A stretch of 64,000 nt of DNA, taken from NCBI GenBank assembly GCA_944384985.1, contig CALWVM010000001.1, positions 62,001-126,000 on the forward strand, written 5' to 3'. The stretch comes from an uncultured Clostridia bacterium (GTDB taxonomy: Bacteria > Bacillota > Clostridia > Oscillospirales > Acutalibacteraceae). Below, in pieces: positions 1,242 through 63,145 of the stretch. The notes under the pieces are model-generated. The model saw nothing but the letters and a program-made list of their open reading frames with translations. It was not told the origin of the DNA and ran no database searches. How positions within the stretch are numbered: the stretch's first letter is position 1; every line of letters starts with the position of its first letter. The position numbers and the translations under genes are program-made.

Positions 1242-1642
1242 TCAGATGTTAGATATTAGAAGTTAGATATTAAACGTGGGGTGGGCGGGGTCTCGGCGCT
1301 GCCGAAAGATATAGCGGACGCGGTAAACTTCCGGTTGTGCCGGGGATTTTCTCCCGCGCCCTACAGTCTCTCCCTCCGGCACGCGCAAAGCGCGTGCCAC
1401 CTCCCTCATCAGAGGGAGGACCGAGTTACAACAAGCCTTCGGTTGTGCGCTGCCCCCTCTGACAAGGGTAATTCCCCACGGTGTGGGGAAATGTCGCAAA
1501 GCGACAAAGGGGACGGCCGCCGTCAGCGGCTGGCAAGCGTTAGCGAGACTGGGGGAGAGAAAAACCTTGAGGACATGCAGTAAAAACCAAAGCGGCGAGG
1601 CTCCCTGTTTTGCTTCTGACTGCTGCTTTCTGATCTCTGCTG
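1242..1642. repeat. Modular intergenic hairpin repeat (copy 1)
   Basis: This fills the purB-aspS gap. A heptamer-like array (TTAGATATTAGAAGTTAGAT type) lies at 1242-1275 next to the purB ribosome binding site. Module A (TCTCTCCCTCCG, an inner hairpin GGCACGCGC-AAA-GCGCGTGCC, CACCTCCCTC, GAGGGAGG) is at 1367-1420. Module B is at 1452-1562. It contains successive hairpins TTCCCCAC/GTGGGGAA, TGTCGC/GCGACA and GCCGC/GCGGC and ends GGGGGAGAGA. A TTCTGACT-type array at 1600-1642 closes the element against the aspS stop codon. Short ORFs here are by-products of the repeat. Confidence 0.85.
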
Positions 1643-1643
1643 T

Positions 1644-3389
1644 CTACGGTTGCGGTCTACGCAACCGAATGTGCACCTCGCGCAGCTGCTGCTCGGACAC
1701 GGTGTTCGGCGCGCCCAAAAGCAGGTCCTGCGCGTTGGAGTTCATCGGGAACGCGATGACCTCGCGGATGTTTTCCTCGTCTTTCAAAAGCATAAGCATC
1801 CGGTCCACGCCCGGCGCCATGCCCGCGTGCGGCGGCGCGCCGTAGTGGAACGCCTTAAAGAGCGCCCCGAAGCGTTTTTCCACTTCTTCCGCCGTATAGC
1901 CTGCAAGCTCGAACGCCTTGATCATCACGTCGGGGCGGTGGTTGCGCACCGCGCCGGAGGAGAGCTCCACGCCGTTGCAAACGACGTCGTACTGGTACGC
2001 CTTGATCGTGAGCGGGTCCTGCGTTTCGAGCGCCTCGAGTTCCCCTTGCGGCATGGAAAACGGGTTGTGCGTGAAGTCGAGCTTGCCCTCTTCGTTTTTC
2101 TCGTACATCGGGAAATCCGTGATGAAGCAAAGCTCGAAGCGGTCTTTGTCGATGAGCCCCAGCCGTTCGCCGAGGGCGGTGCGGATCTGCCCTGCGAGCA
2201 GGTCGACGGCTTTCGGCGCGTCGCTGATAAAGAACAGCGTATCGTCCGTTTTCAAAGACAGGTCTGCTTTGAGCTGCGCCTGTTTTTCGTCGGAAAGGAA
2301 TTTCGCGATCGGCCCTTTATACGAGCCGTCTTCAAGCACGGTCAGATAGCCGAGGCCCTTCATGCCGATGGACTCGGCGAATTTGAGCATCTTTTCAAAG
2401 AACGACTTGCTCTGCTTGCCCGCCGGGGCGACGATACCGCGCACGGGGCGGCCCTTGAAGGGCTTGAATTCGACATCTGCAAAGAACTCGCTTAAATCGA
2501 CGATCTTAAGCGGGTTGCGCAGGTCCGGCTTATCTGTGCCGTAGTGCAGCATGGCCTCTTCATACGGGATGCGTTTAAAAGGCGCGGGCGAAACGGGTCT
2601 GCCGCCCCCGAATTTCGCGAAGGTGTCATACAGCACGTCCTCGGCGACGGCGAAGACGTCTTCCTGCGTCGCGAACGCCATTTCAAAGTCGAGCTGGTAG
2701 AATTCGCCGGGCGAACGGTCGGCGCGCGCATCCTCATCGCGGAAGCACGGCGCGATCTGGAAGTATTTATCAAAGCCCGACACCATCAAAAGCTGCTTGA
2801 ACTGCTGGGGCGCCTGCGGCAGGGCGTAGAATTTGCCCTCGTGTTTTCTGGAGGGGATGATATAGTCGCGCGCGCCCTCGGGCGACGAGCAGGTCAAAAT
2901 CGGCGTGTTGATCTCCGGGAAGCCGAGCGACTCCATCTTCTCGCGTAAAAAGCGCACGACCTCGCTGCGGAACAGGATATTGTCATGCACCTTTTTGTTG
3001 CGCAGGTCTAAAAAGCGGTAGGTAAGGCGCACGTCCTCGCGCGTTTCGGTGGATTCCCCGATCTCGAACGGCAGTGCCTTTTCGCACGCGCCGAGCACGG
3101 TAAGGCTTTCGACGTGTACTTCGAGTTCGCCCGTGGGGATTTTGGGGTTGACCGTTTCCGGGTCGCGTTTGACAACTTTACCCGTCACGGAGACGACGCT
3201 TTCCTTGTGCAGGCGCGCGAGCATTTCCTCGTCGTGCACGACGGTCTGGGTAACGCCGTATTGGTCGCGCAGGTCGACGAACGCCACGCCGCCATGGTCG
3301 CGGATGGTATCGACCCACCCCGCGAGCGAGACGGTCTCCCCCAAATTCTCGAGCGTCAGTGCATTGCAGTTGTGTGTTCTGTATGCCAT
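1644..3389 (-). CDS. aspS: Aspartyl-tRNA synthetase
   Basis: This class IIb enzyme charges tRNA-Asp with aspartate in the cytoplasm. The 581 residues match the usual bacterial length. An N-terminal OB-fold anticodon-binding domain (about 1-105) is followed by the catalytic core. Class II motif 2 is visible as FRDEDARADRSPGEFYQLD near residue 215, motif 3 as GVDRMLMLL near 530, and the bacterial GAD insertion lies roughly at 290-400. It starts MAYRTHNCNALTLENLGE at an ATG, and the C-terminus LRRPQP abuts the intergenic repeat. It is divergent from the LCP gene, with facing promoters between them. No T-box leader was recognised in the 169-bp upstream gap. Confidence 0.96.
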   Translation of the reverse strand: MAYRTHNCNALTLENLGETVSLAGWVDTIRDHGGVAFVDLRDQYGVTQTVVHDEEMLARLHKESVVSVTGKVVKRDPETVNPKIPTGELEVHVESLTVLGACEKALPFEIGESTETREDVRLTYRFLDLRNKKVHDNILFRSEVVRFLREKMESLGFPEINTPILTCSSPEGARDYIIPSRKHEGKFYALPQAPQQFKQLLMVSGFDKYFQIAPCFRDEDARADRSPGEFYQLDFEMAFATQEDVFAVAEDVLYDTFAKFGGGRPVSPAPFKRIPYEEAMLHYGTDKPDLRNPLKIVDLSEFFADVEFKPFKGRPVRGIVAPAGKQSKSFFEKMLKFAESIGMKGLGYLTVLEDGSYKGPIAKFLSDEKQAQLKADLSLKTDDTLFFISDAPKAVDLLAGQIRTALGERLGLIDKDRFELCFITDFPMYEKNEEGKLDFTHNPFSMPQGELEALETQDPLTIKAYQYDVVCNGVELSSGAVRNHRPDVMIKAFELAGYTAEEVEKRFGALFKAFHYGAPPHAGMAPGVDRMLMLLKDEENIREVIAFPMNSNAQDLLLGAPNTVSEQQLREVHIRLRRPQP

Positions 3390-3440
3390 AATGCCGTATA
3401 CATCCCTTCCGGTATGGGTTTATACATAGTATGTTAGAAA

Positions 3441-3469
3441 AGTATAGCACAAACGGCGCGCAATTTCCA
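3441..3469 (-). promoter_or_regulatory. Candidate aspS promoter
   Basis: On the minus strand TGGAAA (complement at 3464-3469) is separated by 17 bp from TATACT (complement at 3441-3446), about 50 bp upstream of the aspS start. The -10 is good and the -35 is poor. Confidence 0.4.
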
Positions 3470-3488
3470 CTCTAATTTGCAAAAAAAC

Positions 3489-3517
3489 ATTGTGCTTTGC
3501 GCGGCTTTCGTGTAAAA
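3489..3517 (+). promoter_or_regulatory. Candidate LCP gene promoter
   Basis: TTGTGC at 3489-3494 and TAAAAT at 3512-3517 are spaced by 17 bp. They lie 41 bp upstream of the GTG start of the LCP gene, in the divergent gap with aspS. Confidence 0.55.
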
Positions 3518-3558
3518 TAGGAAGCGTCCGACAAAGTTTTTTGCGGAGGTGTTGCCGG

Positions 3559-4947
3559 GTGGCAGAGGACAACAAAAACAAAAACGGGAATTTTGACGAC
3601 TTTGAAGATATTTTCAGCAGCTCCGGCGCGGACGATTTTGAAGATATTTACAGCGACAGCAAATCGGACGGCAATCATATAAACGCCGGCGCGGATGAAT
3701 ATGAGGACATTTCCAGCGGCCGGCAAGACGAGGACGACGCGCCCCAAAAGAACGACCCCTACGCCGGGTTTTTTCACGACGATTCGTTTTTTTCGGACGA
3801 GCCGGCGTCTTTTCACCACGCGGTGAACACAAACCCCGAGCAGAAGCCGTACAGCTACCACTACTCGGACCGCGACGCGAAACGCACCCGCGCGCGCAAC
3901 GGCGACGAGATCTATTCCGGGCGCGACGAGGCGGAAAAAAAGCCGCGCAAAAAACCGAAGCATCTTGCGCGCAAGATCGTTGCCGGGGTGCTGTGCGCGG
4001 TACTTGTGTTCTTAATTGCCGCCGTCGGCTACAGCTATTCGCGCGTGAAAAAGATCCTCGACGAAGTGAACTATGTCCCGCTCGGGGTGAACGAATACAT
4101 CGCGTCGTCCGAGCTGCGGCATTCCGACGCCGTGCGCAACATCCTGTTTATCGGCGTGGACGCGCGTGAGGGCGAGGACGCGCAGGAAACGCGTTCGGAC
4201 ACGATGATGCTCGTCTCCATCGACACCAAAAACAAGCAGATCAAGCTGACCTCGTTTTTGCGGGATATGTATATCGAAATCCCGGGCTGGCGCTCGGACA
4301 AGCTCAACGCCGCGCACAGCCACGGCGGCACGCAGCTGCTTGTGGACACGCTCGAATACAATTTTAAGATAGACATTGACAACTACATGCTTGTGAGCTT
4401 CGATATGTTCACCTCCATTATTGACGCGCTCGGCGGTGTGGACGTGGAGATCACCGAACGCGAAGCCGATTACATCAACAGCGACGACCACATGGACGAA
4501 TCCGCGGGCGAAGCTTTTGCGGGCGTAACGCTCTCCGCCGGGAAACAGCATTTTTCCGGCGCGCAGGCGCTCTGGTACAGCCGCATCCGCTATCTCGACA
4601 GCGACTTTTACCGCACCGCGCGCCAGCGCAAGGTCATCACCGCCGTGGTGCGCAAAGCGGCGACGACCTCGCCTTTCAAGCTTCTCAACATGCTCGAGGA
4701 CGTCATGCCCATGGTGCAGACAGACCTGACGACCGACGAACTGACCGATCTCGGTCTGCACGCGCTCACGTATCTGCGCTACGACATCGCGCAGCAGCAG
4801 ATCCCCGCCGACGGCACCTATGAGAGCGCGCGGCGGCGCAGCCAGTCCGTCTTGATCCCGGATATGGATGAGAACATTGAGATTTTGCAGAATTTCATTT
4901 ACAACCGCGCCGAGATCGAAGAAGAGACGACGGACGAGAGCGAATAG
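3559..4947 (+). CDS. LytR-CpsA-Psr (LCP) family cell-wall polymer ligase
   Basis: LCP proteins transfer undecaprenyl-linked teichoic acid or capsule polymers onto peptidoglycan outside the membrane. I place the start at GTG 3559 because GGAGG sits at 3545-3549, nine bases before it; the ATG at 3490 lies over the promoter. That gives 462 residues. An unusually long acidic cytoplasmic tail (1-139) repeats DDFEDIFS, DDFEDIYSD and DEYEDISS and ends in a basic KKPRKKPKHLARK stretch. One membrane helix follows (about 140-160). The extracellular LCP domain begins near 190 and shows RSDTMMLVSID, SFLRDMYIEIPG, DKLNAAHSHGG and DALGGVDVEI. Arg and Asp residues expected to bind polyprenyl phosphate are present. 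It is apparently monocistronic. Confidence 0.92.
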   Translation: MAEDNKNKNGNFDDFEDIFSSSGADDFEDIYSDSKSDGNHINAGADEYEDISSGRQDEDDAPQKNDPYAGFFHDDSFFSDEPASFHHAVNTNPEQKPYSYHYSDRDAKRTRARNGDEIYSGRDEAEKKPRKKPKHLARKIVAGVLCAVLVFLIAAVGYSYSRVKKILDEVNYVPLGVNEYIASSELRHSDAVRNILFIGVDAREGEDAQETRSDTMMLVSIDTKNKQIKLTSFLRDMYIEIPGWRSDKLNAAHSHGGTQLLVDTLEYNFKIDIDNYMLVSFDMFTSIIDALGGVDVEITEREADYINSDDHMDESAGEAFAGVTLSAGKQHFSGAQALWYSRIRYLDSDFYRTARQRKVITAVVRKAATTSPFKLLNMLEDVMPMVQTDLTTDELTDLGLHALTYLRYDIAQQQIPADGTYESARRRSQSVLIPDMDENIEILQNFIYNRAEIEEETTDESE

Positions 4948-5018
4948 GGTTTTCACCCGCCAAGGCTGGGGAAGAGACAACGCTGTTCTTCATACGGCGG
5001 GAGCAGATTCACCGAATC

Positions 5019-5416
5019 CCAAACCCTTTTGTCCGCTTTGCGGACATTTCCCCTAACAGGGGAATCACCCCCGCCCTACAGTCTCTCCCTCCGGCAAAAC
5101 GGCGCACACGCCGTTTTGCCACCTCCCTCGGAAGACGGGAGGAAGGGCTTTCTGCAAACTTTTGGTTCCGTATTTCCCCCTCTGACGGGCGTCGTCGCTG
5201 AAGCGCCGCCGGTGGCGGAAAAAGCGAGGCGAGGACGGCGCAGCGGTCAAAATTTGCCCGCATCGAAAGCGTGGCAAATTTTGGGTACCGCAAGAGGGCA
5301 AGGATGCCGCCGCAAGGCGGCAGGGGGAGAGAAAGAGCCTGTGTTCGCAGTCGGTAAAAGCCCACGCAGAAAACTGCCCCGTATTGCTTCTACCTTCCGC
5401 CCTCTGATTTCTGAAC
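5019..5416. repeat. Modular intergenic hairpin repeat (copy 2)
   Basis: This occupies most of the 588-bp LCP-GH51 gap. A reversed module D (TTGTCCGC/GCGGACA with TTCCCCT/AGGGGAA) is at 5019-5075. Module A with a long inner hairpin (GGCAAAACGGCG/CGCCGTTTTGCC) is at 5078-5140. A diverged module-B relative containing GAAGCGCCGCCGGTGGCGG and ending GGGGGAGAGA is at 5181-5332. A TTCTGATTTCTGA array is at 5385-5416. No gene is credible in this stretch. Confidence 0.8.
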
Positions 5417-5468
5417 GCTGTTCTGCGCACGGCGAATCAAAATTATTTTACAAATTCGCCCGAGCCCG

Positions 5469-7041
<1,573 letters not shown>

Positions 7042-7097
7042 AAGGCATACCCTGCCGCGCACAGCGCGGCTTTGACAGAACAACAAGGAGGATCCCT

Positions 7098-7892: not shown

Positions 7893-7918
7893 GGCCTAAA
7901 AATTGCACGACAACAATA

Positions 7919-7955
7919 ATGGACGGCAACCGTTGGGTTGCCGTCCATTTTGTTT
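7919..7955 (+). terminator. Rho-independent terminator after zinc-ribbon gene
   Basis: A 13-bp perfect stem ATGGACGGCAACC/GGTTGCCGTCCAT with a GTTG loop is followed by TTTTGTTT. It starts 27 bases after the stop codon. Confidence 0.85.
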
Positions 7956-8270
7956 GTGTGTTTTGTAGAGGATGTACAGATGAGATGCTGAAAGCAGAAG
8001 CCGGAGCGTATACGGGAAAGTTGTCGCACCGTCACGGCTGCGCACGTTGCCGAAAATTTGCTCAAACGCGTAGAGGCGGACATGGCAGTCCACCTCTACG
8101 CGAAAACAGTTTATTTTCATCATAGACGCGGGTTGGCTTCTTTCCGTACTCTGCTCGGACGGGCACGGCGACCCGCTCCTACAAGATAAGGTATCCCGTT
8201 TCTGCACAGCCACAATGCTGCGTAAAACCCGAATCCCGCATCTATCCTCTACTATTGAGCATCCGGTATC
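7956..8270. other. Convergent intergenic gap with hairpin, no gene seen
   Basis: A 15-bp stem at 8067-8102 (CGCGTAGAGG arm, loop ATGGCA) has one mispair on the plus strand that becomes a G-U pair on the minus strand. It is followed on the minus strand by TTTGAGCAAATTTT, so it may terminate the nucleoside operon. A fragment GGGCACGGCGACCCGCTCCTAC at 8162-8183 resembles the module-D ends seen elsewhere. Nothing coding is credible. Confidence 0.45.
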
Positions 8271-16851: not shown

Positions 16852-16867
16852 GAAAAACACCACCTTT

Positions 16868-17460
16868 TAAATTTTAGATATTAGACGTTAGACGCGGGAT
16901 TGGTAAGTTTGTAGCAAATCCTTGTCTGCGTGCAGGCGACGGGAAACAAGCGTTTCACAGAAAAAAGGGAGAACGGCCCCGGGACGGGAGAGCGCCACGC
17001 ATTGGGGAAAGCGCGGCCAACGGGGAACGTCCTGCCGCCGCGTGCGCGTTTACGGCTTGGGGTCGACAGGCCGTGCGGCATTTTTGCTTGTTTCCCTTCG
17101 TCCGAACGCAAAACAGATTTCAGAATACAGATGTTAGATATCAGAGGCGATATGGGTAAGCTTTTTACAAAACCGCGGTTGCGCGAAAACTTGATGCTTT
17201 CTGTCGTAGGGGCGGTCTCTGCGCCCGCCCGAGCAGAGCGCGGAAAGAAAACAACCTACGTCTGTTATGAAAACCTTGATTTCGTTTTTCACCGAAATAA
17301 ACTGCAATATTTTACTTTCTTACGGGCGGGCACGGAGATCCGCCCCTACAGGTTTGTACAGATTTTTCGTTGCTTGTCGCAGCCGAAAAGGTGTACGATC
17401 TTTTGGCTTTCATAAAATCTGCCTGCACCGCTTCTGACTTCTGGCTTCTGACTTCTGAAC
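16868..17460. repeat. Modular intergenic repeat in the als operon leader (copy 3)
   Basis: TTAGATATTAGACGTTAGACGC-type array and end sequence lie at 16868-16905, directly before the alsE ribosome binding site. Paired module-D-like ends (GTAGGGGCGGTC at about 17205, CCGCCCCTAC at about 17341) and a CTTCTGACTTCTG array (17428-17460) close the element. About 300 bases at 16910-17200 between them are not recognised. The region would be transcribed as a leader of over 600 nt if the promoter beside the 17486 operator is used. Confidence 0.65.
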
Positions 17461-17485
17461 CCTGTATGCCGTCCGCCTCTTGAGT

Positions 17486-19638: not shown

Positions 19639-19885
19639 GTTTTAGATGTTAGAAATCAGACGCGCTGCAGGCAGATTTTACACAAAGCCGCGGCTGAACT
19701 GAAAAGGTAAACCTTGCAGTCGTAGGGGCGGGTGATTCCCCTGTTAGGGGAAATGTCCGCGTAGCGGACAAAAGGGTGCCGCTGCGCGGTGGATTTTCTT
19801 TTCCGTGCAGCCGTCCGTCGTTCTGTCGCCGCACCGCCCTTCCGGCGCGAGCAAGCCCGCGCCCTGCATTTTAATAGACAGGGAG
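19639..19885. repeat. Modular intergenic repeat (copy 4)
   Basis: The array and end sequence (TAGATGTTAGAAATCAGACG, then GCCGCGGCTG) are at 19639-19697. Module D (GTAGGGGCGGGTG, TTCCCCTGTTAGGGGAA, TGTCCGCGTAGCGGACA) is at 19718-19790. GAGCAAGCCCGCGCCCTGCA at 19860-19879 is the reverse complement of the left end of the gyrB-remB copy. The remaining bases to 20037 are T-rich with a CCCGG/CCGGG hairpin followed by TTCTTTTT at about 19960-19986. No gene is seen. Confidence 0.7.
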
Positions 19886-33983: not shown

Positions 33984-34171
33984 GATGCTGGATTTTAGAT
34001 GCCGGCCGCCGGATGCGGTGCGGGCGGATCTCACGCATTGCCGCAGCTGCGCAGAAAAAATAAAATCAGTCGTTGTAGGGGCGGTTCGTTTTCCTTTCCC
34101 GCACAGTCGCAGCTTTATACAAATCTTCTCCTACCGCTTCTGCCCTCTGACATCTGTATTCTGAATGCTGG
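33984..34171. repeat. Short intergenic inverted-end repeat (copy 5)
   Basis: A compact 188-bp copy in the divergent gap between the glucan synthase and the radical SAM gene. The left end is TTTAGATGCC...GATGCGGTGCGGGCGGATC and the right end is its rough reverse complement (ATCTTCTCCTACCGC...CTGACATC). GTAGGGGCGG lies in the middle. Between 34172 and 34326 I see only a T-rich leader before the radical SAM start. Confidence 0.7.
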
Positions 34172-36063: not shown

Positions 36064-36335
36064 AGGATTTAGAAATTAGAGCTCCGATATGAGGTGGGAG
36101 GATTTTGCGAAAAACCGAAAGTTTGCACAAATCCCTTCCTCCCGTCTTCCGAGGGTGATTCCCCGTAGTGCGGGGAAATGTCGCGAAGCGACAAAGGGGA
36201 CGGCGCTGTTGGCGGTGGATTTTGCCGCAGGCAAAAGACGGAGGGAGAGATACATAAAGCCGAAAACCCGCTTTTTCTCTCCCCCAGTCTCGCTTCGCTC
36301 GCCAGCCCGCTCGTCAGAGGGGGCAAAAAGGCGCA
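36064..36335. repeat. Modular intergenic repeat (copy 6)
   Basis: TTAGAAATTAGAG array and GAGGTGGGAGGATTTTGCG end sequence at 36064-36109. A complete reversed module C (ends CTCCCGTCTTCC and GACGGAGGGAGAGA, with hairpins TTCCCCG/CGGGGAA, TGTCGC/GCGACA and TTTTGCC/GGCAAAA) is at 36138-36250. A reversed module B fragment (CTCTCCCCCAGTCTCGC...CAGAGGGGG) is at 36275-36335. It fills the gap before mrp. Confidence 0.8.
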
Positions 36336-37229: not shown

Positions 37230-37372
37230 TGTTAGATGTCAGATATTAGATGCTGAATGTGAGACGTGGGGTGGGAAGATTGCCGTGAAGCCGCGGCGGG
37301 GCTGGAAAGATAAAACTTAGCAGTTATATACAGAACCTACCCGCATCCAGTCTTATATCTGTCCGCTGATTT
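37230..37372. repeat. Short intergenic inverted-end repeat (copy 7)
   Basis: TTAGATGTCAGATATTAGATG array, then GACGTGGGGTGGGAAGATT and GTGAAGCCGCGG, with a short centre and a right end CCTACCCGCATCCAG...TCTGTCCGCTGATTTCC. It carries no hairpin modules and so represents a nearly empty copy. Confidence 0.65.
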
Positions 37373-42085: not shown

Positions 42086-42125
42086 GGTATTTTATCCCTC
42101 TTTGCTGATGGATATTCTTTTCCCC

Positions 42126-42252
42126 CTTAAGACGAGGGGGATGCCGCCGCAGGGCGGCAAGAGGAGAGACAAAATCTGTACGAATTTTTCTCTCCCTCCG
42201 GCAAAACGGTGTACACACCGTTTTGACACCTCCCTCATCAGAGGGAGGAACG
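42126..42252. repeat. Hairpin modules between gyrB and gyrA (copy 8)
   Basis: A short module B' (GACGAGGGGGATGCCGCCG...GGCGGCAAGAGGAGAGA) at 42128-42168, and module A with an inner hairpin GGCAAAACGGTG/CACCGTTTTGAC at 42189-42250. The heptamer arrays are absent here. Confidence 0.75.
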
Positions 42253-44270: not shown

Positions 44271-44282
44271 CTACTCCTTTTT

Positions 44283-44612
44283 TAGATGCTGGATGTTAGA
44301 TGTTAAATTCTAAATGCAGGGCGCGGGCTTGCTCGCGCCCTACAGTCTCTCCCTCCGTCTTTTGCCTGCGGCAAAATCCACCGCCAACAGCGCCGTCCCC
44401 TTTGTCGCTTCGCGACATTTCCCCGCACTACGGGGAATCACCCTCGGAAGACGGGAGGAAAGGTTTCAGAAAACTTTCGGTTGCGCGTTGCCACCTTTGA
44501 CGGGCGGCCTCGCAGAAGCGCCACGGGTGGCGGAAAAAGTGAAGCGAGGACGGCGCAGCGGTCAAAATTCACCCGCGCCGCTTCTGCCTTCTACACTCTG
44601 CTCTCTGTTTTG
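44283..44612. repeat. Modular intergenic repeat between remB and gyrB (copy 9)
   Basis: TAGATGCTGGATGTTAGATG array at 44283-44315, then CAGGGCGCGGGCTTGCTCG. A complete module C (TCTCTCCCTCCG to GACGGGAGGAAAGG) is at 44346-44464. A GAAGCGCCACGGGTGGCGG unit is at 44515-44535. The TTCTGCCTTCTAC array at 44578-44612 runs into and encodes the last residues and stop codon of remB. Confidence 0.82.
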
Positions 44613-45966: not shown

Positions 45967-46392
45967 TTAGACGCTGGATTTTCTAAATTTTAGATGCTGG
46001 ATTCTGGATGCTAGACGCGGGATGGGAAAGTTTTGCGTGAAGCCGCGGCTACACTAAAAACTGTATGTTTTATCTTGTAGGGGCGGGTGATTCCCCTGTT
46101 AGGGGAAATGTCCGCGTAGCGGACAAAAGGGTGCCGGAATCCGGAGGATTTCCACGCCCGCCCCTACAACTACAGATTTTGTTTTTTCTGCGCACACAGC
46201 AGCGGTAATGTATAAACCCTGCCTACATCGTATCTAATTTCTGATTTCTAACCTCTGAAATCTGGACGGAGCCCCGCCCCTACGAGATTAAGCAGATTTT
46301 TTATTGTTTTCGCAGCCGAAAGTTTCTACAAACACACAGTTTCAATAAAACTTTCCCGCGTCGCTTCTGACTTCTAATCTCTAATCTCTGCC
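45967..46392. repeat. Modular intergenic repeat between yaaA and recF (copy 10)
   Basis: TTAGATGCTGGATTCTGG array and CTAGACGCGGGATGGGAAAG plus GTGAAGCCGCGGC end at 45967-46060. Module D, with its own inverted ends (GTAGGGGCGGG...CCCGCCCCTAC), is at 46076-46170. Internal TCTGATTTCTAACCTCTGA is at about 46239-46257. The right end ACTTTCCCGCGTCGC followed by TTCTGACTTCTAATCTC at 46349-46392 supplies the yaaA stop codon. Confidence 0.82.
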
Positions 46393-47972: not shown

Positions 47973-48000
47973 CTTGGAAGAAGCGAGAGGGCTGTTTTAT

Positions 48001-48235
48001 CTCTTTCTTCGTCACGGCGTTCTACCGTGACACCGCCAACGGCGCCGTTCCCTTTGTTATCTCTCCCTCCGTCTTTTGCCTGCGGCAAAATCCACCGCCA
48101 ACAGCGCCGTCCCCTTTGTCGCTTCGCGACATTTCCCCGCACTGCGGGGAATCACGCTCGGAAGACGGGAGAAAAGGGTTTTTCTGACTTTCAGCGTTTC
48201 TTCTTTCCCCCTCGTAAGACGGGAGGAACGGTTGT
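48001..48235. repeat. Nested module-C copies between dnaA and dnaN (copy 11)
   Basis: A partial copy (TCTCTTTCTTCGTCACGG...CCGTGACACCGCCAACGG...CCCTTTGTTA, 48001-48060) is interrupted by a complete module C (TCTCTCCCTCCG...GACGGGAGAAAAGG, 48061-48180). A second tail, CCTCGTAAGACGGGAGGAACGG, follows at 48211-48232. This reads as one copy inserted into another. Confidence 0.75.
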
Positions 48236-48268
48236 GACAAAGGTTCAGAAAAATGTCACACGCACAAA

Positions 48269-49842: not shown

Positions 49843-50370
49843 GCAGTGGGAGTGGCGCAGAGCGGGAAAATGTCGTGCAGCTACAAAGGAAACGGGGCCG
49901 TTGGCGGCTGTCTGCGATAGCAAACTGGGGGGAGAAAAAGGTTCTATTTTGTCTCTCCCTCCGTCTTTTGCCTGCGGCAAAATCCACCTCCCTCATCAGA
50001 GGGAGGAAAAAGGTTCTGCAAATTTTCGGCTGTCTTTTTGCCCCCTCTGAGGAGGGTGATTCCCCACAGTGTGGGGAAATGTCGCGAAGCGACAAAGGGG
50101 ACGGCCGCTGTCAGCGGCTGGCGAGCGAAGCGAGACTGGGGGAGAGAAAATTTTTCGACTTTCCGCACAGCCGCGGCTTGCATAAACCTTCCCACCTCAT
50201 GTCTAACTTCTAATATCTAACGTCTAAAATCTAAAATGGGACTGTCCCTGCGGGATATGCAATTTTTCAACTTCATGCAAACCTGCTTATACCGCATCCA
50301 GAACCCGGCATCCGGCATCCGGCATCCGACTTCCGGCGTCCAGCATCTAACATCTACATCTAAACCTACA
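49843..50370. repeat. Compound modular repeat between dnaA and rpmH (copy 12)
   Basis: A decayed module B (GGGAAAATGTCG...GGGGGGAGAAAAAGG) at 49846-49942. Module A with an inner GTCTTTTGCC/GGCAAAATCC hairpin is at 49951-50010. Intact module B is at 50038-50148. Right end sequence (AGCCGCGGCTTGC...CTTCCCACCTCATGTCTAAC) is at 50168-50245. A second array (GGCATCCGGCATCCGG..., CATCTAACATC) is at 50290-50370. Three different ages of copy seem stacked here. No DnaA box or gene is seen. Confidence 0.8.
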
Positions 50371-51351: not shown

Positions 51352-51643
51352 GGGGGTGATTCCCCGAACTGCGGGAAATCGCCCTAAACAGAGGGAAAAA
51401 CGGGCAGTGCAATTTTTCAGTCAAGCGTTTCCCCCTCTGACGAGGGGGATGCCGCCGTTAGGCGGCAAGGGGAGAGAAAAAGGAAGTATTTTCTTTCGGT
51501 TTGCGTGTCTCTCCCTCCGTCACGCGCTAAGCGCGTGCCACCTCCCTCCTCAGAGGGAGGAAAAGTTCGCTTCAGACTTTCGTCTACGCACAAACTTCCC
51601 CACCGCTCATCCAGCATCCAGAATCTAACATCTAGCATCTAAA
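51352..51643. repeat. Modular intergenic repeat between yidD and yidC (copy 13)
   Basis: A short B' module (CCCCCTCTGACGAGGGGGATGCC...GGGGAGAGAAAAAGG) at 51431-51482. Module A with GTCACGCGC-TAA-GCGCGTGCC is at 51510-51562. The right end AAACTTCCCCACCGC, followed by a CATCTAACATCTAGCATCTAA array, is at 51590-51643, just before the yidC ribosome binding site. Confidence 0.8.
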
Positions 51644-53684: not shown

Positions 53685-53693
53685 GCAAGCATG

Positions 53694-53724
53694 AAAAGCG
53701 GCGGGAGCTTCCCGCCGCTTTTTA
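53694..53724 (+). terminator. Terminator after jag
   Basis: AGCGGCGGGA/TCCCGCCGCT stem, three-base loop, then TTTTTAGATTTT. It starts about ten bases after the stop codon. Confidence 0.88.
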
Positions 53725-54187
53725 GATTTTAGATATTAGAGATTAGATGTTAGACGCGGGATGGGGAGGTTTGTGAAGCCGCGGCTGCGAGGAAGAAAAT
53801 AACGATCACGCGTAGTGGCAGGCTTCCACGCCTGCCGGAGTAAAGTGCGAAAAGATCAAAACTTATGGTTATATTGAAGCCAAAATTCTGTTTCGCCGTG
53901 ACCGATTGCAAAATCCAGCTTCCTTGCGGGCGGGCATGGAAATCCTCCGGATTCCGGCACCCTTTTGTCCGCTACGCGGACATTTCCCCTAACAGGGGAA
54001 TCACCCGCCCTACATGGTTACGCGAATTTTTGACTTCGCAGAAACATGCCTGCACCACATCTGACATCTAAAATCTAACAACGGCCAGCCGCAAGGGCTG
54101 TCCCTACGGATTGCGCTGCTCTCCGGCTTTGCGCAAGCCTCCCCATCCCATGTCTTGCATCTAAAATCTATCATCTAACTACCATCT
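53721..54187. repeat. Full-length modular repeat with clear inverted ends (copy 14)
   Basis: Left: TTAGATATTAGAG... array, then GATGTTAGACGCGGGATGGGGAGGTTT. Right: AAGCCTCCCCATCCCATG...CATCTAAAATCTATC at 54133-54180, a close reverse complement. Inside is a reversed module D (CCTTTTGTCCGC...AGGGGAATCACCCGCCC) at 53958-54015. It is the clearest example of the inverted-end structure; the right array leads into the mnmE ribosome binding site. Confidence 0.85.
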
Positions 54188-55567: not shown

Positions 55568-55921
55568 AAATCAGAAGTCAGAGGGCAGACATCAGAAGTT
55601 AGAAAACAGAAGTCAGATGCGGTGCAGGCAGGTTTCACGTATTGCCGCGGCTGTGCAGAAGCTCCTCGCACCGCGGCAGGGGGAGAGAAAAAATCTGTTT
55701 TTTATGCGGCGCGAGCTTACCCCCGCCCTACGGTCTCTCCCACCGCCAACAGCGCCGTCCCCTTTGTCGCTTCGCGACATTTCCCCGCACTGCGGGGAAT
55801 CACCCTCGGAAGACGGGAGGAAAGGGGTTATGCTGACTTTCGGCTTTTTTCCGTGCAGCCGCACCTTCACGGAAAACCGCCTGTATCGCCTCTGACATCT
55901 AACATCTGTATTCTGCATTCT
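55568..55921. repeat. Modular intergenic repeat between mnmE and mnmG (copy 15)
   Basis: AGAAATCAGAAGTCAGAGG array immediately after the mnmE stop, with GATGCGGTGCAGGCAGG end. Module C with a shortened first arm (TCTCTCCCACCGCCAACAG to GACGGGAGGAAAGG) is at 55733-55829. Right end CCGCCTGTATCGCCTC, then a CTGACATCTAACATCTG array, reaches 55921. It fills the whole gap. Confidence 0.82.
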
Positions 55922-55938
55922 GTTAAAGGAACATATGT

Positions 55939-57810: not shown

Positions 57811-58523
57811 TGCTGGACCGCGCCCTTTTGGAACGCACGCTTGCTGCGCACGGCGTGACGCTTGAGGACAGCGCCTATGCGCGGCTGGACCTGTACGCCG
57901 AACGGCTGCTTGCGACAAACCGCCAATTCAACCTGACCGCCGTGACCGACCCCCGCGACGTCACGATCAAGCATTTTGCGGATTCGCTCGTGCTGCTGGG
58001 GAAAACGGAGATCCCGCAGGGCGCGTCGCTTTTAGACGTCGGCACCGGCGCAGGCTTTCCGGGACTCGCGCTCAAACTCGCGCGCCCCGACCTTTCCGTC
58101 ACGGTTTTGGACGGCACGCGCAAAAAGCTGGGCTTTATTGCATCCGTCCTATCGGAGGCGGGGCTTTCGGCCGAGACGCTGCATATGCGCGCTGAAGAAG
58201 CGGGAAAACTGCCGAAATACCGTGAAAAATTTGATTTTGTGACGGCGCGCGCCGTGGCGGATATGGCTTTACTTTCGGAATACTGCCTCCCCTTCGTGCG
58301 TGTGGGCGGGCTGTTCCTCGCGATGAAATCCGCCGCCGCCGAAGAAGAAATTCAAAATGCGGCGGGCGCGGTGCGCCTGCTCGGCGGGAAGATCGAACAG
58401 GATCTTTTGTTTGATCTGGTCGAAAACATGCCGCGCAGACTGGTTTTTGTGCGGAAAATATCGCAGACTCCGGCAAAATACCCGCGCGCGTCTGCAAAAA
58501 TTGCGAAAAGTCCCTTAAAATAA
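57810..58523 (+). CDS. rsmG: 16S rRNA (guanine-N7) methyltransferase RsmG
   Basis: It methylates G527 of 16S rRNA using SAM. 237 residues from ATG 57810, whose first base is the last of the mnmG stop; AAGGAGG lies seven bases upstream. The SAM site is LLDVGTGAGFPGLALKLA, with TARAVADMALLSEY and NLTAVTDPRDVTIKHFADS. The Lys/Ala/Pro tail (YPRASAKIAKSPLK) is slightly longer than usual. Confidence 0.95.
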   Translation: MLDRALLERTLAAHGVTLEDSAYARLDLYAERLLATNRQFNLTAVTDPRDVTIKHFADSLVLLGKTEIPQGASLLDVGTGAGFPGLALKLARPDLSVTVLDGTRKKLGFIASVLSEAGLSAETLHMRAEEAGKLPKYREKFDFVTARAVADMALLSEYCLPFVRVGGLFLAMKSAAAEEEIQNAAGAVRLLGGKIEQDLLFDLVENMPRRLVFVRKISQTPAKYPRASAKIAKSPLK

Positions 58524-58660
58524 AGGGAAAAAGCCGTGAACCGCCGCACTTTTAGGCGAACGCTTTTTCTTTACAAATCCGCCCCGCCCGTGCTAAGCTA
58601 ATGATGCCGGGCGGGGAAAGCTTTTTCCGGAGCCGCCCGCTCGGACAAGCCGGGCGGGAC

Positions 58661-59551
58661 ATGCTTTTCCGCCGGCAAAACGGAGCAAAGGAAAGGGCGG
58701 TTCCGCCCGCGGATAAAACTATGAAAACGCCGAAAGTCAAAAGCGCGGGCCAGATCTTTCTGATCCCGCAGGAATCCATCGCGCCGAACCCCAACCAGCC
58801 GCGGCAGCGGTTTGATTACGACGAGTTAGAGGGCCTGGCACAGAGCATCCGTCAAAACGGCATTTTGCAGCCGATCACGGTGCGCCAGACGGAGACGGGC
58901 TTTGAACTGATCTCCGGCGAGCGGCGCCTGCGCGCCGCAAGGCTCGTGGGACTCACCAAGATCCCCGCCATCATTGCGGAGATCGACAATAAGAATTCGG
59001 CGGTGTTTTCGCTGATCGAAAACCTGCAAAGACAGGATCTCGACTGTTTTGAGGAAGCTGAGGCGATCGACCGGTTGGTGACCGATTACGGCATGAGCCG
59101 CGAGGAATTGAGCCGGAAGCTCGGCAAGGCGCCCTCTACCCTTTCCAACAAGCTGCGGCTTCTGCGGCTGCCGGAGGACATGCGCTACCGCCTGACGCGC
59201 GCAGGGCTCACCGAACGCCATGCCCGGGCGCTTTTGCAGCTCGACAATGACGACCAGCGCGCGCGGGCACTGGGGATCATGATCGACCGCCGTTTGACCG
59301 TGCAGGAAAGCGAACGGCTCGTCGAGCAGATGCTCGCGAAGACCGGCAAGAACCGCACGAATTTCCGTGGGATCCGCGATGTGCGCGTATTTATCAATAC
59401 GCTGAACCATGCCGTGGACGCCATCCGCCGCGCCGGTGTGGACGCCGACGCCGCGAAGAGCGAGACGCCGGAATACATCGAGTATGTCGTGCGCATCCCG
59501 AAGCTCGAGCAGTTGAAACTGCCGTTGTCTTCGGAAGATGAGGCGGTTTGA
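58661..59551 (+). CDS. noc: Nucleoid occlusion protein Noc (ParB-like)
   Basis: A CTP-dependent ParB paralogue that binds its own palindromic sites and keeps the divisome off the nucleoid. The ParB/Srx fold shows PNPNQPRQRFD, GILQPITVR and ISGERRLRAARLVGL. The helix-turn-helix is SREELSRKLGKAPSTLSNKLRLL, and the tail EYIEYVVRIPKLEQL is Noc-like. I prefer ATG 58661 because MLFRRQNGAKER could be the short amphipathic membrane-binding helix of Noc. ATG 58721 gives a shorter protein, and 58601 is also open. No strong ribosome binding site decides it. Position after rsmG is the standard Noc locus. Confidence 0.85.
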   Translation: MLFRRQNGAKERAVPPADKTMKTPKVKSAGQIFLIPQESIAPNPNQPRQRFDYDELEGLAQSIRQNGILQPITVRQTETGFELISGERRLRAARLVGLTKIPAIIAEIDNKNSAVFSLIENLQRQDLDCFEEAEAIDRLVTDYGMSREELSRKLGKAPSTLSNKLRLLRLPEDMRYRLTRAGLTERHARALLQLDNDDQRARALGIMIDRRLTVQESERLVEQMLAKTGKNRTNFRGIRDVRVFINTLNHAVDAIRRAGVDADAAKSETPEYIEYVVRIPKLEQLKLPLSSEDEAV

Positions 59552-59690
59552 AGTCAGATGTCAGATTCCAGAAATCTGAGGACAGACGTGCGGCGGGACA
59601 GTTTTCCGCAATGCATTGGTTTCGCAGCAGACTTCCCTTTACGCGTCTGATTTCTCGTCTCTCACCTCTCACCTCTGAATTCTGTCCGCC
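59552..59690. repeat. Short array-bounded repeat after noc (copy 16)
   Basis: GAAGTCAGATGTCAGATTCC array beginning at the noc stop codon, GACGTGCGGCGGGACAG end, and a right array CTGATTTCTCGTCTCTCACC...CTGAATTCTG. No hairpin module is inside. The stretch 59691-59837 holds nothing I recognise. Confidence 0.6.
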
Positions 59691-59837
59691 CTGCGCCCAT
59701 TGGCGCATACACTTCGTAAAACGTGGGCGGCGGCCCACCCCTGTCGCCGTTCCGTTTTAAATATCCATATCCTTCTCTTTCACACCCCACATCCACAGCG
59801 GAACAGCGGTTCGGGATCTCCCGGCCGCTGTTTCGCG

Positions 59838-60265
59838 TTTTAGATGTTAGATTATAGATGTTAGACGTTAGATGCGGGGTGGGGAAATTACTGCAAAGCC
59901 GCTCATACCGCTTCTAATCCCTGTATTTTGATCTCTGACTACCGGAAGCGCCCCGCCTCCTCCCACCCCGCCGTACGTTTCACGTGAAACGTCAAAATCC
60001 TCTGTTTGCGCCCAATGGGGACCTACGGCTTTTCGGGCAGGACTTTCCCCTGCGGTCTCTCCCTCCGGCAACGGCGCCGTCCCTTTTGTCGCTGTGCGAC
60101 GTTTCCCCGCACTGCGGGGAATCACCCTCGGAAGACGGGAGGAAAGGGGTTGTGTTAACTTTCGGTTGTGCGTTTCCCCTCTGACGGGCGCCGTCGCCGA
60201 AGCGTCGCCTGCAAATCTCAGCGGTAACCTTTCCGACAGCTCTGATGTCTGCATTCTGAATTCTG
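59838..60265. repeat. Tandem array-bounded repeats with module C before parA (copy 17)
   Basis: A minimal copy at 59838-59940 (TTAGATGTTAGATTATAGATG, GATGCGGGGTGGGGAAATT, then CATACCGCTTCTAATCCC) is followed by a parS site. A module-C copy (CTCTCCCTCCGGCAACGGC to GACGGGAGGAAAGG) lies at 60056-60147. A CTGATGTCTGCATTCTGAATTCTG array is at 60240-60265. Confidence 0.75.
59976..59991. promoter_or_regulatory. parS site between noc and parA
   Basis: CGTTTCACGTGAAACG: the 14-bp parS core is perfect and only the outermost base pair differs from TGTTTCACGTGAAACA. It is intergenic, just downstream of a repeat copy and 500 bp before parA. Confidence 0.88.
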
Positions 60266-60490
60266 ATTTCCGGAAGCACGCCCTGTCCTGTCCCAAAAAC
60301 CGGGCTGCGTTTCCAAAAAAGCCCTTTCCTTTTCCCAGTGTTTATGCTATACTATAAAAACCAAAGATTTCCCGTTCGCGGGCGGCGTTGTCGGCGAACG
60401 CGCGATGGATTTGCGGGCGCGTTGTTCGCCCCGCGGGGTTCCGAGCGGTGCGCGTTCGGACAAGTCATTTTTCGGAGCTGAAGCAAATTT

Positions 60491-61258
60491 ATGGCAAAAA
60501 CCATTTCCATAATCAACCAGAAAGGCGGGGTCGGCAAGACCACTACGGCGGTCAACCTGTCCGCGGCGGTCGGGGCGCTCGGCAAAAAGGTCCTCATCTG
60601 CGATGTGGACCCGCAGGGCAACACCACCAGCGGCTACGGCATCAATAAGCGGTCGATTAAAACCTCTGCATATGATGTGCTCATCAACGAAGCGCCGGCC
60701 GCGCAAGGCGTAATGAACACAAAGTTTAAAAATGTCGATATTCTCCCGTCCGATATCAATTTGGCGGGCGCAGAAGTCGAGCTCATCGCGCTGGACCGGC
60801 GCGAGAGCCGCCTGAAAGCCGCGCTTGCGAGTGTTTGGGAAGCCTACGACTTCGTGTTTTTGGACTGCCCCCCCTCGCTGGGGCTGATTACCATTAACGC
60901 GCTGTGCGCGTCCGACAGCTTTTTGGTGCCCATCCAGTGCGAATACTATGCGCTCGAGGGGCTCGCCCAGCTGATGGCGACGGTGCGGCAAATAAAAAGG
61001 CTTTATAACCCGCAGCTGGAGCTTGAGGGTGTGCTGCTGACGATGTACGACGGGCGGCTGAACCTCACCGCGCAGGTGGTCGAGGAGGTCAAAAAATTCT
61101 TCCCGCAGAAGGTTTACAAATCCACGATCCCGCGCAACGTGCGGCTTTCGGAAGCGCCGAGCTTCGGCCAGCCCGTGATGTATTATGACAAAGCCTCCAA
61201 AGGCGCGCAGGCCTACGAGGCATTTGCCGAGGAATTTCTTAAGAAGCAAAGGCATTGA
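60491..61258 (+). CDS. parA: Chromosome partitioning ATPase ParA (Soj)
   Basis: 255 residues from ATG 60491. The deviant Walker A is QKGGVGKTTT (10-19), with CDVDPQGNTTSGYG and FLDCPPSLGLITINAL. A typical Soj without an N-terminal DNA-binding extension. It moves ParB-parS complexes and in Bacillus also tunes DnaA activity. Upstream, TATACT at 60348-60353 is a possible -10 with a poor -35. A lipoprotein gene, not parB, follows 31 bases later. Confidence 0.96.
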   Translation: MAKTISIINQKGGVGKTTTAVNLSAAVGALGKKVLICDVDPQGNTTSGYGINKRSIKTSAYDVLINEAPAAQGVMNTKFKNVDILPSDINLAGAEVELIALDRRESRLKAALASVWEAYDFVFLDCPPSLGLITINALCASDSFLVPIQCEYYALEGLAQLMATVRQIKRLYNPQLELEGVLLTMYDGRLNLTAQVVEEVKKFFPQKVYKSTIPRNVRLSEAPSFGQPVMYYDKASKGAQAYEAFAEEFLKKQRH

Positions 61259-61289
61259 CGCGCAGGCGTCATGCGGGAAGGAGCGGGCC

Positions 61290-61895
61290 ATGAAACAACG
61301 AATCTTTGCACTGTGTGCGGTTGTCGTGGTGCTGGCGGCGGGGCTGTTCGGCTGCGGCCAGCGGGAGTTTGTCAAAGATGACGCGGCGCCGACCGTGCCG
61401 GAGACCACCACCGAGGAAACCACCGCGCCGGAAGAAGACGGCTTCGTGTTTGCGGCGGACATCCGCATGGGCATGACCATTGCCGAGGTGCAGGCCGCAA
61501 TCGGGCAGGTCACGGACGTAACGACCGCTGAGGACGGCAGAAGGCAGTTTTCCAACGATTTTTCGGGTGTGTTTATCAACTATTCTACGACGAAAAGCGT
61601 CATTTTCATGTTTGACAGTGCGGACGACCGGCTCGAGCAGCTGCAGTTCCGCGGCGCAACGGATACCGATGGCGCGAATACCGCGGACGCGGTCGCCCTG
61701 TTCGACGTGCGCTACGGCGCGCATGCCGAATACGAGGGCAACTACCCCAACTGCATCTGGAAGCTGAACGATGTGTATATCGTGCTTTCCGAATTGGACG
61801 AGAACAGCTACGCCGTGACGTACACGCAGGCGGACTACTTCGAGGAAGCCTACCCCGAAGAAGCTGAGGTGTACCGCCGCGCGGCACAATCTTAA
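61290..61895 (+). CDS. Lipoprotein of unknown function inserted between parA and parB
   Basis: 201 residues from ATG 61290 after GGGAAGGAG. The signal peptide MKQRIFALCAVVVVLAAGLF ends at a probable lipobox Cys22, then a Thr/Glu-rich linker (PETTTEETTAPEE). The mature domain carries IRMGMTIAEVQAAIG, which resembles the GMT-x2-EV motif of SmpA/BamE-like folds, and three or four predicted beta strands. It sits exactly 31 bases from both parA and parB on the same strand, so it is presumably cotranscribed. The par operon normally has no such gene. The role is unknown; an envelope link for segregation is speculation. Confidence 0.82.
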   Translation: MKQRIFALCAVVVVLAAGLFGCGQREFVKDDAAPTVPETTTEETTAPEEDGFVFAADIRMGMTIAEVQAAIGQVTDVTTAEDGRRQFSNDFSGVFINYSTTKSVIFMFDSADDRLEQLQFRGATDTDGANTADAVALFDVRYGAHAEYEGNYPNCIWKLNDVYIVLSELDENSYAVTYTQADYFEEAYPEEAEVYRRAAQS

Positions 61896-61926
61896 ACGCG
61901 AAGTTTCGCAGGAAAGGGATAAGGAT

Positions 61927-62775
61927 ATGGCAAAAAAAGGAGGTCTCGGCAAGGGCGTGGACGCGCTGTTCTTTGACAACGCCGTCGAAGAGGGCGTCGT
62001 GACCCTGCCGCTTTCGGAGATCGAACCGAACCGGGCACAGCCGCGCAAGACCTTTGACGAGGCGGCGCTCGCGGAACTGGCGGAAAGCATCGCCGAACAC
62101 GGCGTTTTGCAGCCGCTGCTTGTGCGGCCGCAAGCCGTCGGCGGTTATCGTCTGGTCGCGGGCGAACGGCGGTACCGCGCCGCGCGCATGGCGGGCTTAA
62201 AAGAAGTCCCCGTGACTGTGCGCGAAATGACCGACGAGGAAGAGAGTGTTTTTGCGCTCATTGAGAATTTGCAGCGCGAGGACCTGAACCCGCTGGAAGA
62301 AGCCGAGGGTTTGCAGCAGCTCATCACGCGGTTCGGCTTGACGCAGGAGCAGGCGGCTGCGCGCGTGGGCAAAAGCCGCACCGCTGTCACAAACGCCCTG
62401 CGGCTGTTGCAGCTGCCCGAAGAGACGGCGGCCCTCGTGCGCGACGGCAAGCTTTCAATGGGCCATGCGCGCGCGCTGCTTTCCGTGGAGGATCCGGCGG
62501 CGATCAACGCGCTTGCGCAGCAGATCGTACAAAACGGCGTTTCGGTGCGCGAGACGGAACGGCTCGTGAAATCGGCGGGGCGCGAGAAAAAACCGACCGA
62601 GCGCCGTGCAAAGCGCCGCGACCGGTTTTATGACGAAGTGGAGCTGGCATTGAGCGAAACGCTCGGCCGCTCGGTGAAGGTCTATGTGGGCAAAGGCGGC
62701 CGCGGGACGCTGGAAATCGAATTTTTCGGCACGGACGACCTTAAAAAGCTTGCGGCGGCGTTCGACGAAGACTGA
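61927..62775 (+). CDS. parB: Chromosome partitioning protein ParB (Spo0J)
   Basis: 282 residues. A CTPase clamp that loads at parS and spreads. N-terminal KKGGLGKGVDALF is the ParA-stimulating segment. LPLSEIEPNRAQPRKTFDE and LVAGERRYRAARMAGL form the CTP fold, and LIENLQREDLNPLEEAEG follows. The helix-turn-helix is TQEQAAARVGKSRTAVTNALRLL. A C-terminal dimerisation domain ends VKVYVGKGGRGTLEIEFFGTDDL. Two parS sites lie within 5 kb. Confidence 0.96.
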   Translation: MAKKGGLGKGVDALFFDNAVEEGVVTLPLSEIEPNRAQPRKTFDEAALAELAESIAEHGVLQPLLVRPQAVGGYRLVAGERRYRAARMAGLKEVPVTVREMTDEEESVFALIENLQREDLNPLEEAEGLQQLITRFGLTQEQAAARVGKSRTAVTNALRLLQLPEETAALVRDGKLSMGHARALLSVEDPAAINALAQQIVQNGVSVRETERLVKSAGREKKPTERRAKRRDRFYDEVELALSETLGRSVKVYVGKGGRGTLEIEFFGTDDLKKLAAAFDED

Positions 62776-62813
62776 TACAGGGAATACCCTATAATCAACC
62801 TGTCAACAAAGTC

Positions 62814-63145
62814 TTTTCTCTCCCCCAGTCTCGCTAACGCTCGCCAGCCGCTGACAGCGGCCGTCCCCTTTGTCGCTACGCGACATTTCCCCACACTGTG
62901 GGGAATCACCCTCCTCAGAGGGGGCAACGCTTAACCGAAAGTTTGCAGAAACCCTTTCCTCCCTCTGACGAGGGAGGTGGCACGCGCTTTGCGCGTGACG
63001 GAGGGAGAGAACCCTTGAAAAAGCAAGGGTTCTGACTACCCCCAAGGCTTACTTCGCTCGCCAGCCGCTGACGGCGGCCGTCCCCTTTGTCGCTTCGCGA
63101 CATTTCTCCGCCCCGCGGGGAATCACCCCTGACAAGGGGAGCAAA
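62814..63145. repeat. Compound modular repeat between parB and serS (copy 18)
   Basis: Reversed module B (CTCTCCCCCAGTCTCGC...CAGAGGGGGCAACG) at 62817-62928. Reversed module A with GGCACGCGC-TTT-GCGCGTGAC is at 62958-63010. A third, shorter reversed B (CGCTCGCCAGCCGCTGAC...GACAAGGGGAGC) is at 63054-63142. Here the flanking heptamer arrays are missing. Confidence 0.82.

Follow-up and report, generated by a model that had tools for sequence, protein, structure and literature searches.

Repetitive extragenic palindromic (REP) sequences, bacterial interspersed mosaic elements (BIMEs) and the REP-associated tyrosine transposases (RAYT, or TnpA-REP) are reported for Proteobacteria and several further phyla, and not for Clostridia, in the portions of the literature considered here (PMC3733652, PMC2817692, PMC6006769). 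Within those portions, the word Firmicutes has no occurrence in PMC3733652 and PMC2817692, the former assigns GTAG and CGTC repeats to other phyla and allows for missing REPtrons, and PMC6006769 names Clostridia once, for its subclass 1.1. GTAG-REPs carry the tetranucleotide GTAG directly 5' of a palindrome and are found in many intergenic copies (PMC3733652, PMC2817692, PMC8266576), and REPtrons flank a RAYT gene with two inverted REPs (PMC2817692, PMC3733652). BIME-1 and BIME-2 of Enterobacteria combine units of two types, which alternate in opposite orientation and are separated by recurring spacers (PMC2817692), and CGTC-REPs, for which no dedicated transposase is found, have a CGTC tag, a palindrome with a stem of 8-9 bp and a tail with CCA (PMC3733652). 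A. variabilis, T. roseum and H. neapolitanus have REPs enclosed in longer palindromes (PMC3733652), and some insertion sequences use REPs as insertion targets (PMC1525189). The system described here is a dense set of layered palindromic repeats in an uncultured Clostridia bacterium, found in a stretch of 64,000 nucleotides (positions C1:62001-126000, contig CALWVM010000001.1 of assembly GCA_944384985.1), which is called the window.

The source genome (G000) has 2.12 Mb in 26 contigs and is 97.67% complete. The gaps between its genes hold a repeat system made of four parts, which are A/A' units, palindromes tagged with GTAG, a short cassette named I, and E ends with arrays of 7-bp period. We read this system, with a probability of roughly 55%, as a mosaic of REP/BIME-class palindromic repeats that is spread and rearranged as folded single-stranded DNA, and we infer that its units are mobilised. 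The novel part is the host-switching I cassette, the system being read otherwise as one of the known REP/BIME class. A sequence-only reading of the window had proposed a non-autonomous mobile or recombining modular repeat, and this agrees with the patchy presence of the system within one genus, with short orthologous sites that lack it and with the occurrence of I in one of three species at one locus. The same reading knew of no named family with such a build. This stands for the family, since the words of the REP papers, as far as those portions go, include no Firmicutes family, and not for the class, which is already catalogued as REP/BIME: the GTAG palindromes are REP-like and the A units are BIME-like in arrangement. 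No named family in Clostridia or Oscillospirales turned up in open-access literature listings.

Profiles for A, I and E, built from window seeds and run with nhmmer (the source of all bit scores below), give 8 A, 14 I and 22 E matches in the window, and the window modules group into 17 clusters more than 600 bp apart. All searched DNA, part of which was picked because matches lay there (14 loci were fetched for holding an A unit), contains 92 A, 50 I and 145 E matches, with 35, 27 and 59 of them in 457 kb of G000; a reversed copy of all this DNA has no match for any of the three profiles. The copy counts are probably lower bounds, because such repeats break assemblies and many of the genomes are split into tens or hundreds of contigs. 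Unit types, host classes and open reading frame (ORF) proxies follow our own rules. By a hand-chosen ORF list, a module is present in 16 of the 18 window gaps of at least 200 bp and in none of the 11 shorter gaps, which bears out the earlier view that related copies fill nearly every gap above about 200 bp. The modules avoid genes: 7/56 A, 6/43 I and 7/144 E lie mostly inside ORF proxies in three genomes, where the proxies cover 83% of the DNA.

At the 581 perfect hairpins of at least 8 bp in three genomes, no 5' tetranucleotide is in greater excess than GTAG (21 observed, 1.8 expected), whose ratio is the top one among tetranucleotides seen at least 8 times, and GTAG-tagged palindromes are a genuine tagged class in this clade. 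The genus also has Y1 transposases whose best NCBIfam match is RAYT and which carry such palindromes, like the GTAG-REPs described in those portions of PMC3733652, PMC2817692 and PMC8266576. The NCBIfam RAYT model (NF047646) matches in 24 of 39 genomes of the genus, above its cut-off in 3 of the 39. Among 18 Y1/RAYT-like loci of sister species, 13 have a GTAG hairpin within 450 bp of the match, and GTAG hairpins at these loci number 25 in the 22.7 kb near the match versus 12 in the 46.1 kb farther away, the control tag GATG giving 3 near. The five loci that lack GTAG hairpins encode four proteins of 249-253 aa (L161-L164) and one of 147 aa. An opposed GTAG pair is present at 10 of the 13 loci, with both members inside the gene, or with one just upstream and one inside (first-ATG reading frame). 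GTAG palindromes are therefore strongly linked to RAYT-like genes, though without the flanking arrangement of REPtrons as described in the parts considered of PMC2817692 and PMC3733652; since the palindromes do not bound the genes by first-ATG frames, the identification of these loci as textbook REPtrons was dropped.

In L160 and L165-L175 the opposed GTAG palindromes lie in transposase frames, and the first one translates to stretches like VGAGFHPRP. In several RAYT-like genes the plus palindrome precedes the conserved MPNHIH motif and the minus palindrome follows it, which may represent a built-in REP pair. Two sister species have RAYT-like genes (L167, L168) between gyrB and gyrA, the same gap that carries A units in the window.

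A units are composed of TCTCTCCC, a variable hairpin and then a constant hairpin, CTCCCTC-NTCA-GAGGGAG. A' units differ by carrying CCCAGTC together with a hairpin of CCCCCTC/GAGGGGG, and a minor form is called A''. Neighbouring A units no more than 300 bp apart are in opposite orientation in 32 of 33 pairs and are of mixed unit type in 31 of 33, the types being assigned by our own pattern, and G019, one of two sister species used for comparison (the other is G018), has an alternating array of seven A units with spacers of alternately 19 nt and 31-32 nt. The A units are thus BIME-like in arrangement; they are not filed as BIMEs because they are not linked to RAYT, and they differ from BIME-1 and BIME-2 as given in the parts considered of PMC2817692 by having two hairpins with a C-rich head and no adjoining RAYT-like gene. 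The variable hairpin changes its letters and keeps its pairing, with a perfect stem of at least 5 in 26 of 31 distinct interiors (mean 8.0 and maximum 14 when the halves are re-dealt), in a test that left 49 of the 92 A matches unparsed. Some A units have CGTC, a palindrome and a tail with CCA, like CGTC-REPs, but by our own rule CGTC stands as a tag in just 5 of the 31 interiors and the stems range from 2 to 11, unlike those in the portion considered of PMC3733652, and membership of A in the CGTC-REPs is not claimed.

In the window, A units are located at 1367..1420 (+, 50.2 bits), 5082..5141 (+, 31.6 bits) and 49952..50007 (+, 45.3 bits). The A unit at 51508..51561 (+, 49.8 bits) is head-to-head with an A'' unit at 51430..51477 (-, 26.6 bits), and the one at 62957..63010 (-, 53.7 bits) is tail-to-tail with an I-bearing A' unit at 62860. 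Between gyrA and gyrB, an A unit at 42189..42249 (+), identified by profile and orthologue alignment, is head-to-head with an A'' unit at 42120..42170 (-), which served as a seed, was not returned in the window by the final profile and was read from sequence and alignment. The A' unit at 36276..36324 (+, 32.9 bits and sequence) is devoid of I.

The I cassette has the layout ...CCCTTTTGTC-hairpin-GACATTTCCCC-loop-GGGGAAT, preceded by a further variable hairpin, and comprises two conserved hairpins and one variable hairpin; in A-type hosts it starts with CCCCTTTGTC. The sequence-only reading had distinguished modules A to D that mix freely. The modularity stands, but its module B is an A' unit with I, its C an A unit with I and its D a GTAG palindrome with I. 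Each of the three holds the same cassette nested in a different host palindrome, therefore the modules do not simply mix freely. Outside the source species, the hosts of I are GTAG palindromes of many different stems, A-type units and a third repeat, which has the form CGCAGTCTGCGGACTGCG...CCCCTCGACCC[I]CTTTTTGAAAAAGGCGG..GAAAACTTTT in G001, G002, G007 and G032 and which, without I, is an insertion in G019 relative to G000. The nested REPs in the portion considered of PMC3733652 likewise lie within another palindrome, but each of them is tied to one host repeat, unlike I. Most I copies were gathered with exact patterns, and no letter conservation inside I is claimed; the 36 invariant columns of the I alignment are not counted as evidence because the collecting patterns fix most of them.

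I is inside A' units at 1466..1517 (-, 46.9 bits and flanks), at 50054..50105 (-, 52.3 bits), where it is tail-to-tail with the A unit at 49952, and at 62860..62911 (+, 51.7 bits), and inside an A'-like unit at 63077..63128 (+, 44.6 bits). The hosts are A units at 36153..36204 (-, 54.7 bits), 44392..44443 (+, 54.7 bits) and 48106..48155 (+), and shortened A units at 55754..55805 (+, 53.7 bits and flanks) and 60076..60127 (+, 48.7 bits and flanks). GTAG palindromes with I are located at 4992..5079 (+, I match 5024-5070), at 53925..54013 (+, I match 53956-54006) and at 46076..46168 (-, I match 46085-46135), the last of which has a closing stem with inner hairpins in a cloverleaf-like fold. At 19730..19780 (-) I lies beside a GTAG arm, formerly read as D, whose second arm pairs poorly (5/7), and a partial I remnant is beside a GTAG arm at 51354..51383 (-, 21.2 bits and flanks).

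The GTAG arms around I pair with each other in 25 of 29 copies, which have 15 different arms, compared with a mean of 9.4 and a maximum of 15 in 500 position-specific re-dealings. Complementary arms (score of at least 7) are present in 43 of 111 copies of I from the genome contigs (genome_contigs), the other 68 falling below. The nesting of I is thus in clear excess and is not universal by the arm-score test, because 43 of 111 copies reach the score versus a re-dealt mean of 20.0 (maximum 32, 200 re-dealings). By letters alone, the host of 42 of 114 I copies could not be assigned. It is possible, and we propose it tentatively, that I is a mobile DNA of a kind of its own. It would be a non-coding element about 60 nt long, in which a variable third hairpin adds to a core of two conserved hairpins, and it would insert within palindromic repeats and have been passed between unrelated families (A/A', GTAG palindromes of many stem sequences and the GAAAACTTTT type) across Clostridia, turning plain hairpins into branched folds and perhaps altering how REP- or RNA-processing enzymes read them. 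If true, I would show hairpins as insertion targets for other hairpins, a route to complex folded DNA or RNA from small parts.

The search of relatives for copies and empty sites, which the mobile interpretation calls for, finds copies that are patchy in the genus and orthologous gaps that are short in many relatives. The A query matches in 25 of 59 genomes (own included) and 4 of 24 genera, 22 of these genomes being within the genus, and few genomes of the phylum have the exact A core: of 398, the own genome has 20 copies and five others have one each. I is present in 21 of the 59 genomes, all of the same genus, with 1 to 49 copies each and none in the control. The E query, a DNA query used in place of an exact core pattern too strict to match even the own genome (0), matches in 7 of the 59 genomes, all of one genus, strongly in G000, G018 and G019 only, the others matching mainly in the array part. 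Patchy presence inside one genus is the pattern shown by mobile repeats. At least 116 stretches of named genome records contain I, and I may reach beyond the genus sampled among the 59 genomes, because the record titles among the matches listed are of Clostridia (for example Oscillospiraceae, Ruminococcus, Eubacterium and Candidatus Fimenecus), Bacillota or unclassified bacteria. Plasmid records searched for the repeat give no match. I is also seen in four viral contigs (L421-L424), and part of an A/I stretch in the phage records MT836755.1 and MT838420.1, which could be host DNA or real transfer.

The right half of the window is the replication-origin region, with gyrA, gyrB, recF, dnaN, dnaA, yidD, yidC, jag, mnmE, mnmG, rsmG, noc, parA and parB, the names being inferred from translations and gene order. 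This order is also kept in the fetched stretches of sister species, therefore orthologous gaps are comparable (W denotes the window sequence). The mnmE-mnmG gap has 371, 276 and 354 bp in W, G018 and G019 and 26 bp in G024 and G003, and the yidD-yidC gap has 315, 600 and 375 bp in the same three and 0 to 75 bp in 14 others. The dnaN-dnaA gap measures 521 bp in W; it measures 204-229 bp in 11 species, and four more have 389-1122 bp. In W it contains an insertion of 294 bp (47974-48268), directly after the dnaA stop, which has an 8-bp near-repeat at its edges and includes the I-bearing A unit at 48106. The spot at the dnaA stop, beside the origin, also bears long, differing inserts in G024, G003 and G031 and may be a hot spot. 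G018 has an insertion of about 507 bp (G018_C2 near 4356), absent in its sister G019, which contains array-like DNA, GTAG palindromes and I and has a 19-bp imperfect terminator repeat; 7-bp arrays hide the ends. The insertion is at a transcription terminator with an imperfect repeat of its 3' part, which hints that terminators may be entry sites.

The gyrA-gyrB gap gives the change at one locus. Its A unit is without I in W and G018, and the G019 orthologue has a block of 59 columns between the two hairpins, with CACC on both sides of the junction and a small loss in the adjoining arm. This block is too short to encode a transposase, unlike the insertion sequences that target REPs in the portion considered of PMC1525189. 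A gain of I in G019 is probably the simplest reading, because G018 and G019 are 93% identical in the compared stretches and W is 84-85% identical to each; the alternative would be two losses. The neighbouring hairpin is A'' in W and G018 and A' in G019, between conserved flanks. Such a swap is what would be expected if no transposase were involved, and if the units were made and moved by replication slippage, by template switching at hairpins and by gene conversion among copies. The small arm change that comes with I instead of a clean duplication, a tandem duplication of an array-plus-GTAG unit in G019 and the failure to find RAYT in G000 argue for the same explanation, which we nevertheless regard as doubtful, as it leaves unexplained the GTAG tag, the GTAG pairs at RAYT-like genes and the insertions into new places, of which dnaN-dnaA is one.

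E ends with 7-bp arrays form a clade-specific outer layer, which often encloses GTAG units. The E ends are flanked by the periodic array, and the degenerate 7-bp array noticed earlier is real, with a self-match of 0.511 at lag 7 and 0.465 at lag 14 versus 0.21-0.29 at all other lags between 2 and 15. Neighbouring E ends no more than 700 bp apart form 34 E+E- and 2 E-E+ pairs, so the ends are inverted, as first described, where orientation differs; yet 39 of the 75 neighbours have the same orientation. A miniature inverted-repeat transposable element (MITE) moved by a DDE transposase, with the REP-like hairpins and I as later passengers, would account for the inverted ends and for the ~507-bp G018 insertion. 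It would also account for the content of the DNA between paired E ends, which makes up 6.4 kb of 1278 kb and holds 25 of 73 GTAG hairpins and 11 of 43 I. Just 5 of 56 A units are there, however, and A and I are found in genomes without E matches; together with the 39 same-oriented neighbours and the lack of a visible fixed-length target duplication (the 7-bp arrays hide the ends), these data make the MITE explanation unlikely. The sole E+E- pair spanning 0.7-4 kb in the sampled DNA encloses dnaA and dnaN, and no mover for E was found at the E pairs, in a search that covered about one fifth of each of three genomes and did not include DDE transposases.

The first E end of the window, with its 7-bp array, is at 1242..1304 (+, 40.3 bits). 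E ends with inverted partners are located at 17115..17177 (+) with 17406..17462 (-), 33984..34044 (+) with 34108..34169 (-), 45985..46047 (+, 49.1 bits) with 46202..46263 (-), and 55587..55649 (+) with 55865..55921 (-). Further E ends of plus orientation are at 16864..16920, 19641..19692, 44282..44326 (weak, 20.9 bits), 53722..53783 (54.9 bits) and 59554..59614, and those of minus orientation at 46345..46392, 50172..50234 (49.4 bits), 50272..50356 (weak, 20.4 bits), 51584..51642, 54034..54080 and 54124..54179. Copies free of modules had been noticed at 37230-37372 and 59838-59940, and both contain E matches alone, at 37232..37295 (+, 49.3 bits) and 59840..59902 (+, 56.4 bits), the nearest I beginning 174 bp beyond the latter match.

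The units could also be RNA elements for 3'-end protection, attenuation or termination, selected in mRNA and not mobile as DNA. In line with this, stems are kept while letters change, and 2 of 38 placed A units lie in divergent gaps, which make up 100 of the 396 gaps of at least 150 bp. The composite of GTAG palindrome and I at 46076-46168 also folds far better than shuffles, into a long closing stem enclosing inner hairpins (z of -6.0 and -5.9 for RNA on the two strands and of -6.0 and -6.3 for DNA). We consider the RNA explanation very improbable, as there is no preference of strand relative to tandem genes (14 sense and 11 antisense for A, 13 and 14 for I), presence between species is patchy at the same gene pairs, and no Rfam family matches the window.

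Several results weigh against the reading of the system as a REP/BIME-class mosaic spread as folded single-stranded DNA. A search for a transposase or RAYT finds Y1/RAYT-like genes with GTAG palindromes in sister species and none in the own genome, where PF01797 and NF047646 have no match in 26 contigs at 97.67% completeness; Y1/RAYT matches are likewise 0 in G018, G025 and G059. The proteins above the NCBIfam RAYT cut-off are those of L161-L164, which have no GTAG hairpins, and the GTAG-bearing ones fall below it in the genome search (scanned alone against the cut-off of 80, the G019 protein scores 80.7 and the G024 protein 76.3), so that the genes are only provisionally named RAYT. No RAYT-like gene has a GTAG palindrome on each side (0/13 loci), most palindromes sitting within the reading frame, and a single A match, more than 1 kb away, is found at 30 RAYT-like loci (22 distinct places). 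The unparsed A matches of the stem test count in the same direction, as does an earlier pooled arm test with crude host sorting, in which third-repeat copies landed in the A class: A-type hosts show no excess (14/33, re-dealt mean 13.0, maximum 20), compared with 26/33 in GTAG hosts (mean 15.0, maximum 21) and 3/7 in unsorted hosts (2.3). There is no clear rule of replication strand for A (10 left and 14 right of the origin, +/- being 8/2 and 7/7) or I (+/- of 4/5 left and 10/6 right), and the target-site signs are ambiguous, with a near-repeat at dnaN-dnaA and a terminator repeat elsewhere.

In the REP/BIME-class reading, GTAG units would be copied on single-stranded DNA as hairpins by RAYT enzymes, the enzyme being absent or lost in the source genome and its relatives present in sister species. 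A units and I may move through similar hairpin processing or be carried as passengers, and cassettes, I and variable hairpins would be exchanged by hairpin-directed insertion, gene conversion or template switching between copies. The system differs from the GTAG-REPs of the portions considered of PMC3733652, PMC2817692 and PMC8266576 in that many intergenic copies hold an inner cassette, which gives a branched fold, and in that no RAYT is found in G000. As RAYT-like genes are found in some sister species and none in others, this dense layered system offers natural presence/absence pairs for the spread of REPs and for their fate without the enzyme.

There is also a separate MITE-like family, which has ends like AAGCTGCCGAG..CAGCTT and a length of 148-278 bp; one species has it at a site whose orthologue in another species lacks it. 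Its sites are in G000_C13 near 6741, and in G018_C5 and G019_C6 at the place matching G000_C7 14500.

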